From assembly GCA_913061385.1 (NCBI GenBank), contig CAJXTM010000056.1:1-10554 (forward strand): 10,554 bases of DNA. The letters run 5' to 3'. Under the pieces are notes generated by a model. The model was not told the origin of the DNA and made no database searches. It was given only the letters and a program-made list of their open reading frames with translations. Origin of the DNA: an uncultured Rhodopirellula sp. Lineage in GTDB: Bacteria; Planctomycetota; Planctomycetia; Pirellulales; Pirellulaceae. The position numbers and the translations under genes are program-made. Shown in pieces: positions 1 to 10,554 of the stretch. Position 1 is the first letter of the stretch; every line of letters begins with the position of its first letter.

Positions 1-47
1 CTACACGTAAGGAGTCGTCGGCAGCGTCAGATGTGTATAAGAGACAG
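1..47 (+). other. Illumina Nextera i5 adapter left on the contig end (not genomic)
   Basis: Bases 1-6 match the 3' end of the Illumina P5 oligonucleotide (CTACAC). Bases 7-14 are GTAAGGAG, which matches the Nextera i5 index known as S505/N505. Bases 15-47 match the 33-base Nextera read-1 transposase adapter, ending in the mosaic-end bases AGATGTGTATAAGAGACAG (29-47). Genomic sequence begins at 48. The adapter was recognised from memory of the published oligonucleotide; the match is complete over its length. Any reading frame that crosses 1-47 is artificial, and the large minus-strand gene is cut at this junction rather than ending there. Confidence 0.98.
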
Positions 48-3000
48 CCACTGGGGTCAATGATCGACGCCAGAATTGCTTCTTTGGTTTTGTTTGTAAT
101 CGATGCCAACTTGGGCCCTACATCGTACCCCTCGCCATTGATTCTATGGCAATTGATGCACAACTTCCTGAACAACTTTTTCCCTCGTGTGGCTTCACCC
201 TCAAGCTTGATCGCTGATGCATATCGAGCTAACACCGCCGCACGATCAGCAGACACTTTTGCCGACAAAAGTTCTTTCCAAGAACCTGAATTTTTGTTGG
301 CATTGAGCAACCGTTGCTGAACGGGTGCTGGCAGTTCGCTTGAGCTGATGCTTCCATTTTGCACGTGAGCCAGCAAACTTGCTGACCAGGCAGCACGACT
401 CACGATGGCATTGAGTATCTGTTTTCGCTGCTCAGGACTACGCGACTGCCAGCCATCGAGCAGAACCTCCGCCACTTCAGGATCATTTATCTTCGCAAGA
501 CGTGAAACCACCTGCTGTTGCACAAATACAGGCGAACGAGGCCCCAACAACTCAGCCAGCAAATCAAAATCTGACTCTTGATTATCTTGTTCACGCCCCA
601 ACAAATGGACCGCGGATCCGCGACGATCAACTTCGGCGGATTCATCAGTTGCAGATTCGCGTGCCTCTTGAATGCTGTCTGCTATCCTGCGGCGAGCATC
701 ATCTGACGTGCGACTGATGGGCCACTTACGATCCTCAAGTCCATCGAGTGCCATGGCCAAAGAAGCAAAGTGTCGGGCACCAGCCTTACCTTCTGTCGAT
801 GCATGGACAACTTCAAGGACTCGTTCAATTGTCTCTGCGTCACCCATGGCAACCGCTTGACCGATCAACTCACGCACCAAATCAGGTTTTGCACTGGTAT
901 TGATCAGGCTAGCCAAAACATCTGATACATTGCCCGGATTCAACGAGCTCATCGCAGCTGCAATCATGTAGTGATCGTTCGCGTTCGCTGCCATCAGTTG
1001 CCCGAGTGCTGATGCCGCAACAGGGGTTTGATAATTCCCCAAACAGGACATCAGTTCCAATTTTACTTTGGGGTCTGGATCATCAGTGAGTCTTGTCAGG
1101 CAATCGACATCAACTTTGATGGTTGACGCGACACGAACGGCATTCCGCCGCACCCCCGGGTGCTGATCTGACAAAACCGCCTCGAGGCTGTCGACTGATA
1201 GTCGACCAAGCCCCTCCAGCGTCCAGAGAGCATGCAGTCGTGCGAGCGGCTGTCGGCTGGTTTGCAACAAATCCTCAAGCACAGGAACAGCGGATTGGTG
1301 ATCTCCTCGCACCAACATTCGTTGAGCCATGTCTCGCTGCCAGCCATTCGGTTTTTCGAGTACAGCAGCGAGCTCAGTCGCAGTTTGCTCGGCGAGAGTC
1401 TTACCCGATCCAAACGTCTGATCATGATCGCGCGTCTGATTCTGCCGCACAATACGATAGATCCTGCCGCGGTCTTGCCCCGCTCTGAACCACGGGCGTA
1501 ATTCGTTCTGTCCGTTTTCGGGCAACCACTGGGGATGCTCGATCATGTACCGATACATGTCCACAACCCACAGAGCTCCCTCAGGTCCAGTGCGGACCAT
1601 GACAGGCCGACACCAACGATCCTCGCTGGCAAAGAAATCGGTTTCTGCTTCCTCAGGATCCCGCCTGAAAGCAAAACTGACTCCTTCATCTCGAATCAAA
1701 TTGTGCTGCACAAGATTGTGGAACGGTTCACAGGTAAAGGCGTGTTGCTCTGTTCCCCTTTCGAACAAATATGCATCACGGTAAATCATCGGCGAACACG
1801 CAGACGTAAAGCGTCCAGACTGGCTGAAGCTGTGATAACGTTTTTGTAAATTACTGGCTGGATAGACAGGCGGATTGGCTGGTGTGACCACTTGGTGTTT
1901 GGGATCAGGTGGAGCGTAGTGCGAATTTCGTCGGATGTTCTGGTCAGCTAAAACATAGTGCCACAAGGGATGGCTGTTCTGCACACCAAACCAATTGCCC
2001 CAGTCATCGCGGCTTCTTCCGTATTGCGAAGGACCACTCTGCGGGTCCATCAGTCCCTTGTCAGGACGCAGCCGAAAATCGCGACTACCGAGACGATATT
2101 CGGCACCTGTTTGCAATGACTTGATTTCACTGTCTTTGCCATAGCCGCCATGATGGCTTCCACTGGCACAGTACACCCAGTTGTCGAGTCCCCAACGAAG
2201 CCCATTGACTCGCAATTGCTGATTCCCTTGAAGAAAACCAGAATACAGTGGCCGCTGCACATCGGCTTTTCCATCACCTGACGTGTCTTCCAAATATACG
2301 ATTTTGGGAGCAGCGGTCACAAGGATTCCGTTGCCCCACACCAGCACACCGGTTGGAAAACTCAGGCCTTCGGCGAACAAAGTAGTCTTATCGTAAAGCC
2401 CATCAGAATTCGTGTCCTCAAGAAAACGCACTCTCCCTCCCGGTTGCCCTTTCCCATCCAACCCCAGCGGATAGTCAGCCATTTCCACTACCCAAAGTTT
2501 TCCATCCGGCCCCCAATCAATAGCAACGGGATCCTGAACCAGCGGCTCTGCAGCCACAAGCTGAACCTCGAAACCGTCACGCACCTGAATCGTGTCGATC
2601 GCCTGCCCTGCGTCCGTTGGCGTTGGATCAGCCAAAATCGCCGAAACTGCATCTTGTGGGTCCTTGATCTGCTTGACTGCGGCTGCTTTAAAATGGGCAG
2701 CGACTTCGGCGGGATTCAAAGCACGATCATAGAGAGCGATTTCTTCCATCATCCCCTGAAGGTTTGCAAAATTGTCAGCTCTTCCCCCCAGCAAAATCTG
2801 CTCACAGCCATCCGGATACCCGATGGGTAAATCCTCTTCGATTTCTGGTTCAACATCACCATTAAGGTAAACAGTGATGCGTTGGTCCTCTCGCACCATC
2901 ACCACATGCGACCAACTGCCCTGCACGATCGGCGTCTTCCCCGCAACTAATTGATCCCGCTGATTACCATTGAACACAATCAGCCGCCCCATGTCCGAGT

Positions 3001-5536
3001 GCGTACCACCAATTCCCAAATTATCACCCATGGCACCATCGACTCCATCCACCGCCCTCGAAAACACATAGGCGGTCACAGGGCGTGACCCGACGGCCAA
3101 TTCATTCCGAACCCAGAGTTCGATGCTGTAGGTATCTCCTAGAGCAGGCACTTTCACCTTGACCCGTCCGCCCGAAAAATTGGGCACATTCGAATTCACT
3201 TCAAGCGGTTTTGAGCCGTCTTCATAAACAGCAGCACTGGCTGCAGGTGCATTGGTGCCGAGAGAGCTGAGCGTAACTGCATTTTTCGCTTGCGAAGCCA
3301 ACCCACCATGCAGCCGCCAAAAAGCAACTGGCTTGGACGCCAACACAGCATCAGCATATTTTCCGCGTGATTTGGCATCAGTCGATTTTGCAGCCAGCAC
3401 GACCATTGGTTTGGGTCGTGGTGGAGGGACCATTCCCGACACTTGATAAAGTACATCCACATCAGCCGTTTTCAATGCACGATCAAAAACGGCAACCTCA
3501 TCAATTTTCCCATCGAACGTCGCCTGCGAAACACCATCGCTACCAATGAGCAATCGCTGCACTGGCTTTAGCGAATCAACCGGTGCATCAATTTCAGGAT
3601 CCAGACCGCCATTTAGGTAGACACGGATACGTTGATCATCTCTGGTCACGATGATCTGATGCCAATCGATGGGTGAAATGGGCGTCTTACCTGGATAGAT
3701 TTTCTGTCCGGAATGAAGCAGCAATCGACCTGCGTATTCGCCGCTTGCTGTACCACCAAGCAACAGCGTTTCGGTCTCGTTCGAAAACAAAACACCGGTG
3801 ATTTCACGAACCCCAGCGGGCAGCATATTCTGAAACGACATTGCCAGACTGTACTGCTTAGGTGCCTGCTGCAATTTTGCCTCAACGTGTCCACCGGCAA
3901 GATAAACAGCTCGCGATCCATATCCCTCTGCAGCGAAACCAGCGGCCTCGGGACCAGGCAAGAACAAGGCAACCGCACCGTGATACTGAGCGGAATGATT
4001 CTCAATCGAATCAACAAGCTGTTCCGAAGTCATATCATCGAGTTGCCAATGAGCGATCGGCTTTCGGTCACGGAGTGCCTGCGAGTAGGGCGAATCGCTC
4101 TGAGCAATCGTCCGACGTTTTTTTCCGGAGACCTGTTCCAGCAAGCTCAATAAGGCTTCCACGACCTGCGGCTCAGCCTGTTCCTCAAGCCCGGCAGTAC
4201 GAGCGGGCCAAGTCGTGTAGCCGCCCAATTGGTGCTGTTCAGGCGGTGGAATGTATCCCGTTGCTCCATTGGCAAGTTCAAGATTGAAGGTCGCAGCAAG
4301 CGGACTCTGCCGTTTCAATTTCAGGCCGGTGATGCCATAAACTTCATTTGGCATCGCAGTGATTCCCAGATCACCAATCCGGACTGCTTGCAGAACCACC
4401 TCAGCGCTCGGATGTTCGTGAATCCACTCGGCCTGTTGGGCGTACACCTCCACTCGTGTGCGTGGCAACAATTCGCCGCGGGCTGCATTGATTGGTCGTG
4501 CCCATTGCCGACGGTCTTTGGACGGTTTCCGTAGGTCAATCGTCAATCGTTTTTCGGACATCGCAAGCGAGTGATCGGAGCGGTGCTCGACCTTTGCAAC
4601 GGCATCCAACACATGGTCCGCAACACGTTGAGAATACTGCTGACGGTTGATGGCCTGACGGGGCTGGCTGTAATCCATCCAGTGCAAATCACCACTCGTA
4701 CCCTGAGACATGATGCCCACAAAACCAAAAACATTCTCCGCGTTATCCTTCTGCATTCTTTCTTTCAACAGACGGGCAACTTCACCAAAATAATCTGCAG
4801 AAAAACCACCACCACCAAAGTAGTGCATCGAAAGATTAGCCATCACACAGATGGGTGTCGCATCCTTATCGGAAACCACACTCAATACCGAAAGCCATGG
4901 GTCAATCGGCCCAGCAGGACTTGTGTAAGACGGATTTTGATAACCAGGATGCATCATCGCTCGTACGGTTTTTTGACCGAATGGATCGACACCCATTTTG
5001 TCGCTACGAGTGATCCAACGACGACAATTTGTTAATTCGCTACCGTCCACAACGGTCCAGCCAATTTTTGCTGGCTGCAGATTCTGGTGTGCCTCGACAA
5101 TGGACTTTGCAATGCGGGCGGGTACATACTGGACATAGGGATCGTCAGCAGGACACCCCAGACACAACATCGAGGACGGGGCCATGTGGGTATGAGTCGC
5201 GCTGATCAAAATGCGATCGATTGGGATCCCTGTTTCCTGCGATGCCAGATGCTTGGCCTTGTCGCACAAAAATGTCGGCAACATGCAAGAATCAACAATC
5301 ACCATTGCAATGGTTTCTGATCCATCACTGATCACCAAAGAACGTGCATGCAGCGGATCTACCACTCGATCTGACTTGGCCTGCAGAAACCCACCGTTCT
5401 GAAACGCAGGCAGTGTCTGCGGCGATATGTCCACTGCCGCAGCACCTGCAAGCAGTACAGTCGTATCCGCACCACGTAACGTGGCCCCTGTCATAAGTAA
5501 TGTCAAAGAGCAGGCAAAGTTCAACAAAGATCTCAT
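48..5536 (-). CDS. Exported giant fusion: ceramidase-like hydrolase, two LamG domains, PVC-type dehydrogenase, HEAT region and CxxCH cytochrome domain (3' end cut off)
   Basis: One open frame of about 1,829 codons with no stop before the adapter junction. The ATG at 5536 is the only sensible start, because an in-frame TAG lies seven codons upstream; no clear Shine-Dalgarno is seen. Residues 1-22 look like a signal peptide. Residues 28-470 resemble neutral/alkaline ceramidase, with ATHTH 113-117, H238, GTSGD 279-283, MPNEVYG around E398 and GYIPPP at Y428. LamG-like domains lie near 490-700 and 735-946, both with a DQRI-VYLNG strand and a DRAL ending. Residues 983-1361 are the Pirellula/Verrucomicrobium-type dehydrogenase propeller (FEVQLVAAEPLVQDP, DDWGNWFGVQNSHPLWHY, WVVDMYRYMIEHP). 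HEAT-like helices follow to about 1740. CINCH 1793-1797 is a c-type heme site; the text stops at IIDPS. Family knowledge suggests periplasmic redox chemistry on a sugar-like substrate, with electrons passed to the heme. The hydrolase substrate is unknown. The domain assignments are firm except for the HEAT boundaries. Confidence 0.9.
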
Positions 5537-6026: not shown

Positions 6027-6515
6027 ATGAGTAATGCATGGAGTCGTAAGGTATTGGTTCTTGCTTTCACTGCAGTCTGTCTAATCGCAATCGCACAGGA
6101 GAAGCCGCAAGGCCCAAACACTGATCCGGGTCGTGGGGCAACCACCGACCCTGAGCGTGGGATAACGTCGGTCAGTCGCGAAGCGGTGAAGGGCAGACTG
6201 CCGCGGCATTTTGCTTCGTTGGTAAATAGCGAGCAAAGAATCGAGATTTACCTGATTCAGACGCAATTCCGCGACCAAATTTCTAAACTCAAGCAGGAGC
6301 TGGCAAAACTTGAATCAAAACAGATGCAAGATATCGAAGCGGTACTGACAACGGATCAGCGGGAGAAACTATTTAACTTCCGCAACAGTTCTCGCAAGAA
6401 ACGAGCTACAGATTCTGGCGTTGGTGATGGTCGTACTCCGAAGAAGGCGACGAACGATTCGCCAGGTCCCGCATCTTCAGCGAAGAACCAAACGTCGAGC
6501 ACTTCCAACCAATAA
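6027..6515 (+). CDS. Small exported helical protein, Spy/LTXXQ-like (tentative)
   Basis: 162 residues with an ATG start. Residues 1-23 look like a signal peptide: a basic MSNAWSRK, a hydrophobic core, and AIA before QEK. Residues 30-50 form a Pro/Gly-rich linker with a loose repeat (TDPGRG, TDPERG). Residues 58-118 are strongly helical and charged, ending in VLTTDQREKLF (106-116). That resembles the LTxxQ-type helix of Spy/CpxP-like periplasmic proteins and many planctomycete small secreted proteins. The tail from 119 is rich in Ser, Lys and Thr and probably disordered. Only a weak AAGAG precedes the start. The gene stands alone, ends in its own terminator and is divergent from the giant gene. 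The export call is good; the Spy-like assignment is an inference from one motif, and function is unknown. Confidence 0.75.
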   Translation: MSNAWSRKVLVLAFTAVCLIAIAQEKPQGPNTDPGRGATTDPERGITSVSREAVKGRLPRHFASLVNSEQRIEIYLIQTQFRDQISKLKQELAKLESKQMQDIEAVLTTDQREKLFNFRNSSRKKRATDSGVGDGRTPKKATNDSPGPASSAKNQTSSTSNQ

Positions 6516-6832: not shown

Positions 6833-7879
6833 ATGAACAACAAGCACCAAATCGCCCTGCTATTTTTTACCATTTTCAGTCTGTTGATTGAGACCCCCGC
6901 ATGTTCTGCGGAGGAACCCGATTCAGCAAAGCCCATACCGCACTCGTCTCCCAAAGTTCAAGTGAAAACCACAGACCTCCCGGAACTGCCACTCGAGCTT
7001 ACGAGCTTTGGCGGCGCTGTTGCGAACGGAACATTGTTCATTTACGGAGGTCACTCGGGGACGGCACACTCTTATTCCACCACAGAGCAATCCAATGAGT
7101 TTTGGTCACTCGATCTCAACGACCCGCAACAGTGGAAGCAATTACCCTCAGGCCCGCGTCTGCAAGGTTTGGTGATGCTTCCTCACAAAGACTCGGTCGT
7201 ACGCATTGGCGGCTTTACGGCTCGCAATGCCGAGGGCGAAGAACATGATCTGCACTCCCAACAAACAGTCAGCCGATTCGACGTAGCCAAAAACGACTGG
7301 GTCGATCTTGCTCCACTGCCGGAACCAAGATCATCTTTGAGTGCTGCAATTGCTGGTGACCAAATTTTTGTGATTGGCGGCTGGGCACTCAAAGGCGAAG
7401 CAACTGATTGGCATGGCACTGCCTGGAAACTGAATCTCACAGACTCAAATGCTGTCTGGCAACCGCTTGCAAACCCACCCTTCAAAAGAAGGGCTCTGTT
7501 TGCAACAGCCCATGATGGAAAAATCCATGTGATCGGCGGCATGAATTCCAATGGTGGCCCAACCACTCGAACCGATGTTTACGATCCCGCAACAGACAGC
7601 TGGCTGCAAGGACCAAGCCTTGAGGGCAAACCGCTCACGGGATTCGGATCAGCCGCTCATTCCCTTGGTGGTCACCTTTACGTCAGCACAATTGACGGAA
7701 ACGTCCAAAGGCTTAACGAATTAGACAAGAAATGGGATGTGGTTTCGGAGTACGAACCCGCACGTTTCTTTCACGTGATGGTGCCATGGACTGACACAAA
7801 AATGTTACTAGTCGGGGGGGCAAACATGTCTGTGGGCAAGTTTACCGACCTGGATTCCGTCGAGATCGCAACCGAGTAG
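6833..7879 (+). CDS. Exported Kelch-repeat beta-propeller protein
   Basis: 348 residues with an ATG start. Residues 1-26 are an export signal: MNNKH, a hydrophobic stretch and a CSA processing site. TPAC at 21-24 could alternatively be a weak lipobox. Six Kelch-type strands follow, recognisable by hydrophobic residues and a Gly-Gly doublet: 59-76 (LFIYGG), 111-130 (VVRIGG), 168-186 (IFVIGG), 221-240 (IHVIGG), 271-290 (blade five, LYVSTIDG, doublet lost) and 311-332 (MLLVGG). Conserved Trp and Tyr/Phe partners appear between them (YDPATDSW, FDVAKNDW). Six blades and this length suit a complete propeller with nothing else attached. Kelch propellers bind proteins or glycans, and some are enzymes such as galactose oxidase; I see no basis for a catalytic call. 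It is transcribed alone and converges with the gene at 8020. Confidence 0.9.
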   Translation: MNNKHQIALLFFTIFSLLIETPACSAEEPDSAKPIPHSSPKVQVKTTDLPELPLELTSFGGAVANGTLFIYGGHSGTAHSYSTTEQSNEFWSLDLNDPQQWKQLPSGPRLQGLVMLPHKDSVVRIGGFTARNAEGEEHDLHSQQTVSRFDVAKNDWVDLAPLPEPRSSLSAAIAGDQIFVIGGWALKGEATDWHGTAWKLNLTDSNAVWQPLANPPFKRRALFATAHDGKIHVIGGMNSNGGPTTRTDVYDPATDSWLQGPSLEGKPLTGFGSAAHSLGGHLYVSTIDGNVQRLNELDKKWDVVSEYEPARFFHVMVPWTDTKMLLVGGANMSVGKFTDLDSVEIATE

Positions 7880-9589: not shown

Positions 9590-10432
9590 TTGTCGCTGTT
9601 TGCTCATCAGCCTTTTTCCGACTACCTGCACCATTGGTCACTGCAACGCCCCCCATTTCTTGGTTGCCCTGATTTCTTTTTTTCAGGCCAGCCTCAACGT
9701 GAAACGCTGGCGGCACTGCAGTACTTTGCAGCGAGTACTTGGAAACTTGCCTTTCTAACGGCAACAAGTCGAACTGGGGTCAGTCATCTGCTTGAGCACA
9801 TGGTTTCCATGCGTGGACTCGGCTCATCTCCGGTCGACGTCATTCTGACTCGCATCAGCGGCCAAGGATCACAGACTCCGATACAGCAACTTGGTTCTTT
9901 ACTGGGATATGGACACAGCAGCACAACAACCCGGCAAATGATTGATGCTGCAATCCAACAGAGTGATAAGCAAGGAATCAGCACTTTGTGGTTTCTTGAA
10001 AACTGTTCCGTGTCCACCATCAGTGTGGCCGCTGGCTTTGCGCAGCGGCACCGCAATTTTTCGGTGGTTGCCACCACCCAACCCGACCAGCGACCGTTAT
10101 TGCAATTAAGTGCGGGCATGTGTGGCATGCAGATTGAACTTGAGCCATTGACCCCACACGACACGGCAGCCTATGTGAGTGCTGCTTTGAAACAAGCTGG
10201 CAGCATACGTGCAATCTTCAGCGAAGCGTCCATTAGACGGTTGCATGAATTGTGTGCGGGTCTAATCGGTGAAATAGCGGTAATCGCCGAGTCAGCACTC
10301 ACGACAGCCGCCTGCAGCGGTCTTTCAAAAATCACACCAGCTACAATTGAACAGGTATTTGAAAGCCACAACATGCAGCGTCGAACACAACCACCCGGAG
10401 ATGATGAGTTGTTGGGCAAGCGGGTTGCGTGA
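9590..10432 (+). CDS. ExeA/GspA-type AAA protein with degenerate nucleotide-binding motifs (likely pseudo-ATPase)
   Basis: 280 residues from a TTG with AGGA six bases upstream. The N-terminal YLHHWSLQRPPFLGCPDFFF (12-31) is the typical opening of ExeA/GspA-type AAA ATPases, which work in secretion and envelope assembly. The C-terminal half keeps the family layout: TTQPDQRPLLQL after the core, LEPLTPHDTAAYV, IFSEASIRRLHELCAG and a helical lid. The core motifs are changed. The expected Walker A pattern LTGxxGxGKTxLL reads LTATSRTGVSHLL (56-68), with Val64 in place of the invariant Lys and two Gly lost. The Walker B position reads LWFLENC (133-139), without an Asp-Glu pair. The usual PRxIN of sensor 2 reads IGEIA. 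The frame is intact, so this is not decay by stop or frameshift. ATP hydrolysis is unlikely; a binding or scaffold role is inferred. The next possible gene overlaps it by four bases. Confidence 0.8.
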   Translation: MSLFAHQPFSDYLHHWSLQRPPFLGCPDFFFSGQPQRETLAALQYFAASTWKLAFLTATSRTGVSHLLEHMVSMRGLGSSPVDVILTRISGQGSQTPIQQLGSLLGYGHSSTTTRQMIDAAIQQSDKQGISTLWFLENCSVSTISVAAGFAQRHRNFSVVATTQPDQRPLLQLSAGMCGMQIELEPLTPHDTAAYVSAALKQAGSIRAIFSEASIRRLHELCAGLIGEIAVIAESALTTAACSGLSKITPATIEQVFESHNMQRRTQPPGDDELLGKRVA

Positions 10433-10554
10433 ACAACATTCTGAAGATCAGTGGACGCTCAAAAAAATGCCAGCAGGCTGTGGCTCGAGAATGTGGCTCG
10501 AGAATGTGGCTCGAGAATGTGGCTCGAGAATGTGGCTCGAGAATGTGGCTCGAG
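10429..10554 (+). CDS. Possible start of the next gene, overlapping and running off the edge
   Basis: A GTG at 10429-10431 overlaps the TGA of the preceding gene (GTGA), an arrangement typical of translational coupling. The frame stays open to the end: VNNILKISGRSKKCQQ, then the 13-bp repeat read as a 13-residue peptide unit, VARECGSRMWLEN. Because 13 is not a multiple of three, the array uses all three frames before repeating, and none gives a stop in this frame. About 17 codons precede the repeat, too few to recognise a family. It may be a genuine gene start or chance. Another possible start is the ATG at 10468. Confidence 0.3.
   Translation, partial: MNNILKISGRSKKCQQAVARECGSRMWLENVARECGSRMWLE
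10479..10554 (+). repeat. Perfect 13-bp tandem repeat at the contig end
   Basis: The unit GTGGCTCGAGAAT begins at 10480, 10493, 10506, 10519 and 10532. A sixth copy of ten bases runs to the edge. There are no mismatches. Including the preceding T, the array spans 76 bases. Each unit carries the palindrome CTCGAG. The repeats touch the contig end, so the true copy number is unknown and the array may be longer or may be an assembly loop. It is not a CRISPR array because there are no spacers. Confidence 0.95.

Follow-up and report, generated by a model that had tools for sequence, protein, structure and literature searches.

A conserved ceramidase-fold, LamG, propeller, and heme c fusion protein in an uncultured Rhodopirellula sp. 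and its relatives

The PVC-type heme-binding CxxCH proteins (TIGR02604 plus HEAT plus TIGR02603; DUF7133) are built on a core of propeller, HEAT repeats, and heme c, and the only propeller-family member with a reported activity found in our literature search is Lac161_ORF7. Fusions of a related kind, but from other families, are the PSCyt (planctomycete-type cytochrome) proteins joined to carbohydrate-binding modules in freshwater Verrucomicrobia, whose function was described as unknown (PMC5615132). Here we analyzed a 10,554-nucleotide stretch of DNA from an uncultured Rhodopirellula sp. (contig CAJXTM010000056.1 of assembly GCA_913061385.1), called the window at its full length. On its minus strand, positions 50..5536 encode 1,829 residues of a protein that has the same core as the PVC-type proteins and differs from them in that this core is preceded by a ceramidase-fold domain and a pair of LamG domains. 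This arrangement is conserved, and the same core is joined elsewhere to ceramidase-family domains at other positions and to an unrelated metal deacetylase.

The open reading frame starts with an ATG at 5536 and is stop free to the window end; its parts, all on the minus strand, are as follows. A signal-peptide-like N-terminal stretch, read by eye and modeled with low confidence (residues 1 to 24; 5465..5536), precedes a ceramidase-fold metal-hydrolase domain (residues 25 to 473; 4118..5464) that matched Pfam Ceramidase_alk (PF04734) at residues 62 to 161 with 27.4 bits, under the cutoff of 32.1. Two LamG domains were recognized by Laminin_G_3 (PF13385; two stretches, 107 bits against a cutoff of 27.6), the first being LamG/concanavalin-like at about residues 495 to 715, with borders that we set (3392..4054; TafC match at 591 to 700), and the second lying at residues 793 to 946 (2699..3160). 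The six-bladed propeller (residues 978 to 1365; 1442..2605) matched DUF7133 with 500 bits, and TIGR02604 scored 237.6 bits, above its cutoff of 122.2. A helical HEAT-repeat region (HEAT_2) spans about residues 1386 to 1779 (200..1381), and the heme c site, CINCH, is at residues 1793 to 1797 (146..160), with a Pfam Cytochrom_C match at 1783 to 1826. TIGR02603 matched partially (51.7 bits against a cutoff of 68.15) in the window protein, which lacks its C terminus; a complete homologue with 99% identity (P0001; 1,919 residues; source name Rubripirellula sp.) supplies the missing C terminus with the full heme domain and reached 120 bits. The older name of the family includes "membrane-bound"; in the residues available, which lack the C terminus, no transmembrane-grade hydropathy peak was found (highest 19-residue value, 1.48). 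An earlier note on this DNA had read a single chain with a complete metal hydrolase, two LamG domains, a propeller, HEAT repeats, and a heme motif in this order, and all of these parts were recovered; among the profiles it named for checking, TIGR02604 and LamG exceeded their cutoffs, PF04734 fell short, and TIGR02603 passed in the complete homologue.

The chain breaks off near residue 1829 because the contig end is sequencing adapter. Bases 1..47 (no strand) are not genomic: bases 15 to 47 match the Nextera read-1 adapter exactly, and bases 1 to 14 are presumably a primer tail plus index. Genomic DNA begins at base 48, which makes the final residues of the raw frame an adapter artifact. Across the 1,197 contigs of the assembly, the adapter core occurs in 1,366 copies (667 forward plus 699 reverse; reversed-letter control, 0 and 0). 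Untrimmed adapter is thus an assembly-wide feature whose listed places are contig ends, and frames entering such ends acquire a false tail. The earlier note had raised two ways in which the fusion could prove illusory, a misassembly or frameshift between domains and homologues that always encode them separately. Neither applies: the same domain order recurs in one frame in homologues from many separate assemblies, which makes misassembly very unlikely. Third-position guanine-plus-cytosine content along the chain is 0.45 to 0.52, with 0.60 in the short cytochrome end. The ceramidase-fold, LamG, propeller, and heme fusion is confirmed as real.

Nor is it a rarity, contrary to the implication of the earlier note. 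Among the best 120 of 1,518 homologue matches, ceramidase-like columns are present in 116 and the propeller family, PF23500, in all (as a precomputed column); a shorter form of about 1,650 to 1,720 residues is common in this set. At least 17 of 99 genomes, own included, carry both halves in one frame: 13 have one match running from residue 35 or earlier to residue 1829, and four more (G025, G039, G043, and G053) have both halves in frame, a lower bound among the best matches listed, with the own copy lacking its C terminus. Looking by locus, named genomes contributed 77 loci, of which 69 have matches to the ceramidase-like part as well as to the propeller part, and 68 of these 69 do so in one stop-free frame, the single exception (L046) carrying a masked stretch. 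Of the remaining loci, seven lack the ceramidase-like part and one the propeller part, several of them at contig ends. By title, the fusion-bearing loci come from Planctomycetota, Verrucomicrobiota, and Hydrogenedentota. The domain order, which the earlier note had proposed to look for in other Pirellulales, is conserved in planctomycetes, verrucomicrobia, and related bacteria. In source records, some members already bear the label "neutral/alkaline non-lysosomal ceramidase N-terminal domain-containing protein" or "PVC-type heme-binding CxxCH protein"; the fusion is a conserved, annotated family and not unique. Six loci (L077, L023, L047, L049, L068, and L080) are in metagenome bins labeled Klebsiella pneumoniae or Akkermansia muciniphila, labels that look wrong for carriers of this PVC gene family.

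What is new is that ceramidase-family domains are joined to the propeller-HEAT-heme core at three positions, and that an unrelated metal deacetylase of the NodB type is joined to the same core. Besides the N-terminal position described above, a ceramidase-family domain lies between deacetylase and propeller in P0133, P0153, and P0226, with PF04734 above its cutoff, and at both ends of the propeller-heme core in P0100, P0109, P0116, and P0118. A polysaccharide deacetylase (PF01522) precedes the core in 5 of 5 proteins scanned (E < 0.001; three over cutoff), which were chosen from 20 stretches because the frame lay wholly inside; FG-GAP repeats occur in four of the five. In the best 120 of 2,274 matches to one of these proteins, D81, D82, H136, H140, R176, and P178 are invariant, columns that fit the NodB-type deacetylase motifs. 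A quick tree of 73 selected rows, indicative only since long branches meet, grouped the C-terminal ceramidase-family copies with support 99 and the middle copies with a support of just 60, placed each group at a distance from the N-terminal type, and required at least six changes between fused and stand-alone states. Near stand-alone ceramidase-like genes, no propeller or HEAT-cytochrome partner was found in 20 stretches, a weak negative in that L137, L142, L143, and L144 end at contig ends. In the open literature (subscription papers and preprints were outside the scope), no paper linked ceramidase with Rhodopirellula, none combined three of the terms planctomycet, heme-binding, membrane-bound dehydrogenase, and ceramidase, and none combined deacetylase with the PVC heme names.

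The pairing of two metal deacylases with one core suggests a link between taking off an N-acyl (or acetyl) group and processing the sugar part, because unrelated deacylases have repeatedly been joined to the same partner. For that reason we favor, tentatively and with slightly less than even confidence, an exported, soluble, modular carbohydrate-processing enzyme that pairs N-deacylation with sugar processing. Export would be directed by the signal-like N terminus. The N-terminal domain would act as a metal-dependent N-deacylase with a pocket unlike that of true ceramidases, its serine column being changed and its metal site and catalytic His and Arg kept; the LamG domains may hold the glycan or glycoconjugate; the propeller would process the sugar moiety, oxidation being the most likely chemistry, with electrons passed to the attached heme; and the HEAT region may serve as a spacer between propeller and heme domain. 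The likeliest substrate class would be an N-acylated amino sugar or glycoconjugate, not ceramide itself. The scheme of cleaving, holding, oxidizing, and passing on electrons that the earlier note put forward is plausible, and the repeated deacylase pairing gives it more weight, but the names behind half of it do not, or could not, stand up when checked residue by residue.

For the propeller, structure comparison of the model identified a six-bladed fold of the soluble glucose dehydrogenase (sGDH) type, with sugar dehydrogenases as best matches (21.7 to 25.4). All 39 aligned rows retain the heme motif, with C834, C837, and H838 (model numbering) invariant. With the GPD-like turn aligned by hand, the position of the catalytic His of sugar dehydrogenases (H144 of sGDH) falls on Leu149 (model numbering), and this column holds Leu in 33 and His in 6 of the 39 rows. 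More than a quarter of AA12 sequences also lack the catalytic His, frequently with Leu instead (PMC6881810). A candidate Arg/Asx dyad, R215-S216 in the same hand-set register, has Arg in 39 of 39 rows and Asn in 24 of 39; its spacing from position 149 is 66, compared with 67 in two AA12 enzymes, 84 in sGDH (printed numbers), and 78 in the GSDH set. In the own genome the propeller family has 34 matches, a number that includes separate fragments of a single gene.

Several results count against oxidation by the propeller or against the sugar-processing scheme as a whole. On a second look, other six-bladed propellers were close to the sugar dehydrogenases (20.1 to 21.4), and when an 870-residue model was ranked with Foldseek, helical-repeat proteins came out on top and PQQ (pyrroloquinoline quinone) glucose dehydrogenase appeared at rank 48. 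Profile comparison of DUF7133 with GSDH by hhalign gave no meaningful alignment, and the propeller profile found no match among PDB sequences up to an E value of 10. The Leu at the catalytic His position belongs here as well. A search for PqqC was positive in 1 of 60 clade genomes and in 0 of 14 control genomes, and PqqD was not found in the own genome, which is 78% complete. A sulfated-polysaccharide neighborhood was considered and rejected, the sulfatase-type cluster contributing 23 open reading frames in 15 of 77 loci against 19.9 expected, not above background (the expectation derives from the own genome's 137 matches, fragments included, and the cluster family is named from one member). 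The sole PqqC (G014:C352:2367-3077) is in a genome that is 74% complete, in which contamination is possible. Fungi with AA12 enzymes are not known to make PQQ themselves, and since they manage in this way, scavenged PQQ is a possible cofactor here by analogy. The name "dehydrogenase" used in the earlier note therefore stands as far as fold is concerned and is not secured by cofactor supply, by the catalytic position in its hand-set register, or by the one assayed relative, reported as a beta-galactosidase.

That relative, Lac161_ORF7 from a Chthoniobacter-like cosmid (TIGR02604 plus HEAT plus cytochrome c), also speaks against oxidation: purified from Escherichia coli, it was reported to hydrolyze lactose with release of glucose and a Km of 1.8 mM (PMC5342196). 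In Paludisphaera, eighteen homologues have been interpreted as beta-propellers with a distant relationship to putative glycoside hydrolases (PMC5352709). If the propeller is a glycoside hydrolase, the chain would deacylate and hydrolyze a glycoconjugate, and the heme would have a separate role in anchoring or redox sensing, or none; Leu at the catalytic His position and the rarity of PqqC fit this account. The sugar-dehydrogenase folds ranked best and the 39 of 39 heme motifs do not, and the relatedness of Lac161_ORF7 to the window protein rests on a shared family name. The activity comes from one report using a glucose-release assay and the host BL21(DE3)pLysS (PMC5342196). This strain produces a LacZ of its own, and we see a risk of contamination by it, although the reported optima of pH 6.0 and 50°C argue somewhat against that. 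Overall we consider a hydrolytic propeller rather unlikely. Between the two chemistries, fold and heme favor oxidation, and the assayed relative points to hydrolysis.

In another reading, propeller and heme would oxidize a hydroxyl of the sugar, and cleavage of the activated glycoside (3-keto type) would fall to the LamG-like domain or to a partner, which would mimic hydrolysis in a glucose-release assay. A DUF1080 protein has been proposed as the partner of lactose 3-dehydrogenase in Caulobacter (PMC9007349). Among homologues of the window protein, PF06439 (3-keto-disaccharide hydrolase) matched over the LamG region in P0093, P0094, and P0101 with 28.5, 24.9, and 26.9 bits around a cutoff of 26.8, but Laminin_G_3 scores far above it in all three, and PF06439 had no match in the window protein at an E value of 0.1. 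The jelly-roll fold is common to both families and could by itself explain matches this weak. Such a redox-assisted glycosidase is improbable.

Whether the N-terminal domain is a ceramidase can be examined residue by residue. A profile of 30 family members was aligned with the Pseudomonas enzyme (Protein Data Bank [PDB] entry 2zws) and with 4wgk, and the domain has the fold of the neutral ceramidase catalytic domain. Its zinc-site positions H115, H238, and E398 fall on H97, H204, and E411 of 2zws and are invariant. HTH (residues 115 to 117; 5186..5194) aligns with H97 and H99 of 2zws, or human H194 and H196, and of the homologues without a gap there, 116 of 116 have His; the corresponding counts are 115 of 115 for Arg172 (5021..5023; R160 of 2zws), 116 of 116 for His238 (4823..4825), and 118 of 118 for Glu398 (4343..4345). 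Tyr440 (4217..4219), a candidate fourth metal ligand whose counterpart we presume to be Y448 of the Pseudomonas enzyme, is Tyr in 118 of 120 homologues, in a loop (residues 432 to 448) with predicted local distance difference test (pLDDT) values below 50.

The serine position is different. Where ceramidases carry the motif GDVSPN, the window protein has GDLH (residues 282 to 285; 4682..4693), and the serine column is His285, a placement obtained by gapless extension over one or two residues, since the PDB alignments stop short of the serine, at GD or GNL. Middle-type copies have GADxNP at this site, which fits the register. In the 117 homologues with a letter, column 285 holds 70 His, 41 Met, 5 Gln, 1 Trp, and no Ser (three gaps), and the "Ser motif" cited in the earlier note does not correspond to the ceramidase serine. 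A broader comparison covered 37 rows, made up of the window protein, 23 stand-alone frames (two from the same gene), nine middle copies, and four C-terminal copies. Here H115, H117, H238, and E398 were invariant, R172 was present in 33 rows and replaced by Ser in the other four, the C-terminal copies (P0100, P0109, P0116, and P0118), and none of the 37 aligned rows had Ser at column 285; the string G[DN]xSP[NQ] was absent from the stand-alone, middle, and C-terminal copies searched. Because stand-alone, middle, and C-terminal copies all lack the Ser, its replacement appears general in the groups sampled and not peculiar to this fusion.

According to a review, human neutral ceramidase depends critically on His196, Arg257, Tyr579, and Tyr591, and its Ser354 stabilizes Arg257 instead of acting as the attacking group (PMC6952831). 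Since the human serine is a stabilizer, its replacement would alter the pocket rather than prove inactivity. The reading of the earlier note, an oxidoreductase fused to a true ceramidase or lipid amidase, could accordingly survive the change with the ceramidase fold and metal site in place. We find this improbable nonetheless: Ser occurs in 0 of 117 homologues, PF04734 stays below its cutoff, the core offers no lipid hint, and NF041649 (neutral ceramidase) had no match in the window protein at an E value of 0.1 (of four homologues scanned, only P0120 matched, at 17.7 bits against a cutoff of 1,200). Of the name "ceramidase," fold and metal site hold, and the active-site serine and profile scores do not. 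A noncatalytic binding module or scaffold, to which the changed serine column and the poorly modeled loop of the candidate fourth ligand might point, is very improbable, as a mere scaffold would not need metal-site and His/Arg columns that are invariant wherever 115 to 118 homologues have a letter.

Elsewhere in the window, a Kelch-repeat protein weakly like N-acetylneuraminate epimerase (6833-7879, plus strand) and a 162-residue protein with no Pfam or NCBIfam match at an E value of 0.1 (6027-6515, plus strand) each recur in the neighborhood of the fusion gene in six loci, one of them the window, and a DUF1501 cluster is near it in 14 loci. A protein at 9590-10432 (plus strand) weakly matches the XrtA/PEP-CTERM system ATPase, below cutoff. 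A perfect 13-base tandem repeat (5.8 copies) occupies 10479-10554, up to the contig end, and is probably where the assembly stopped.

Returning to the N-deacylating, sugar-processing enzyme that we favor, the repeated fusion to two deacylase types is a direct clue to the substrate of the core and the part most worth following; it turns "putative membrane-bound dehydrogenase," an annotation of long standing, into something that can be tested on a defined set of substrates. Database names for this family call for caution, as "ceramidase" covers a changed serine column and "dehydrogenase" an unproven cofactor. As a broader speculation, which we regard as rather unlikely, PVC-superphylum bacteria may have built repeatedly one-chain enzymes from a metal N-deacylase (either NodB type or ceramidase type, the latter drawn from distinct subfamilies and placed at three positions), an AA12-like propeller, and a heme, some chains with both deacylases, as a route that deacylates and then oxidizes or redox-cleaves N-acylated sugars or glycoconjugates. 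We know of no enzyme family that covers such a route.

Compared with known systems, the window protein departs from neutral ceramidases (2zws and 4wgk; PF04734 and NF041649) in the His, Met, Gln, or Trp of its family's serine column, in the LamG domains that follow, and in scores under the curated cutoffs. The Coprinopsis pyranose dehydrogenase CcPDH, an AA12 enzyme with a cytochrome b and a CBM1, carries heme b where the window protein has heme c, has no deacylase, and has its catalytic His363 where the hand-set register places Leu149 (PMC6881789). Lac161_ORF7 (AGW45552) shares the three-domain core by family name, but is a 109-kDa protein for which neither a ceramidase-fold domain nor LamG domains are reported (PMC5342196). 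The proteins combining PF01522, DUF7133, HEAT, and cytochrome c (the L130/P0121 group) have both the core and a metal deacylase in front; they differ in that the deacylase belongs to another family, FG-GAP repeats take the place of LamG in most of those scanned, and some have a ceramidase-family domain in the middle of the chain.

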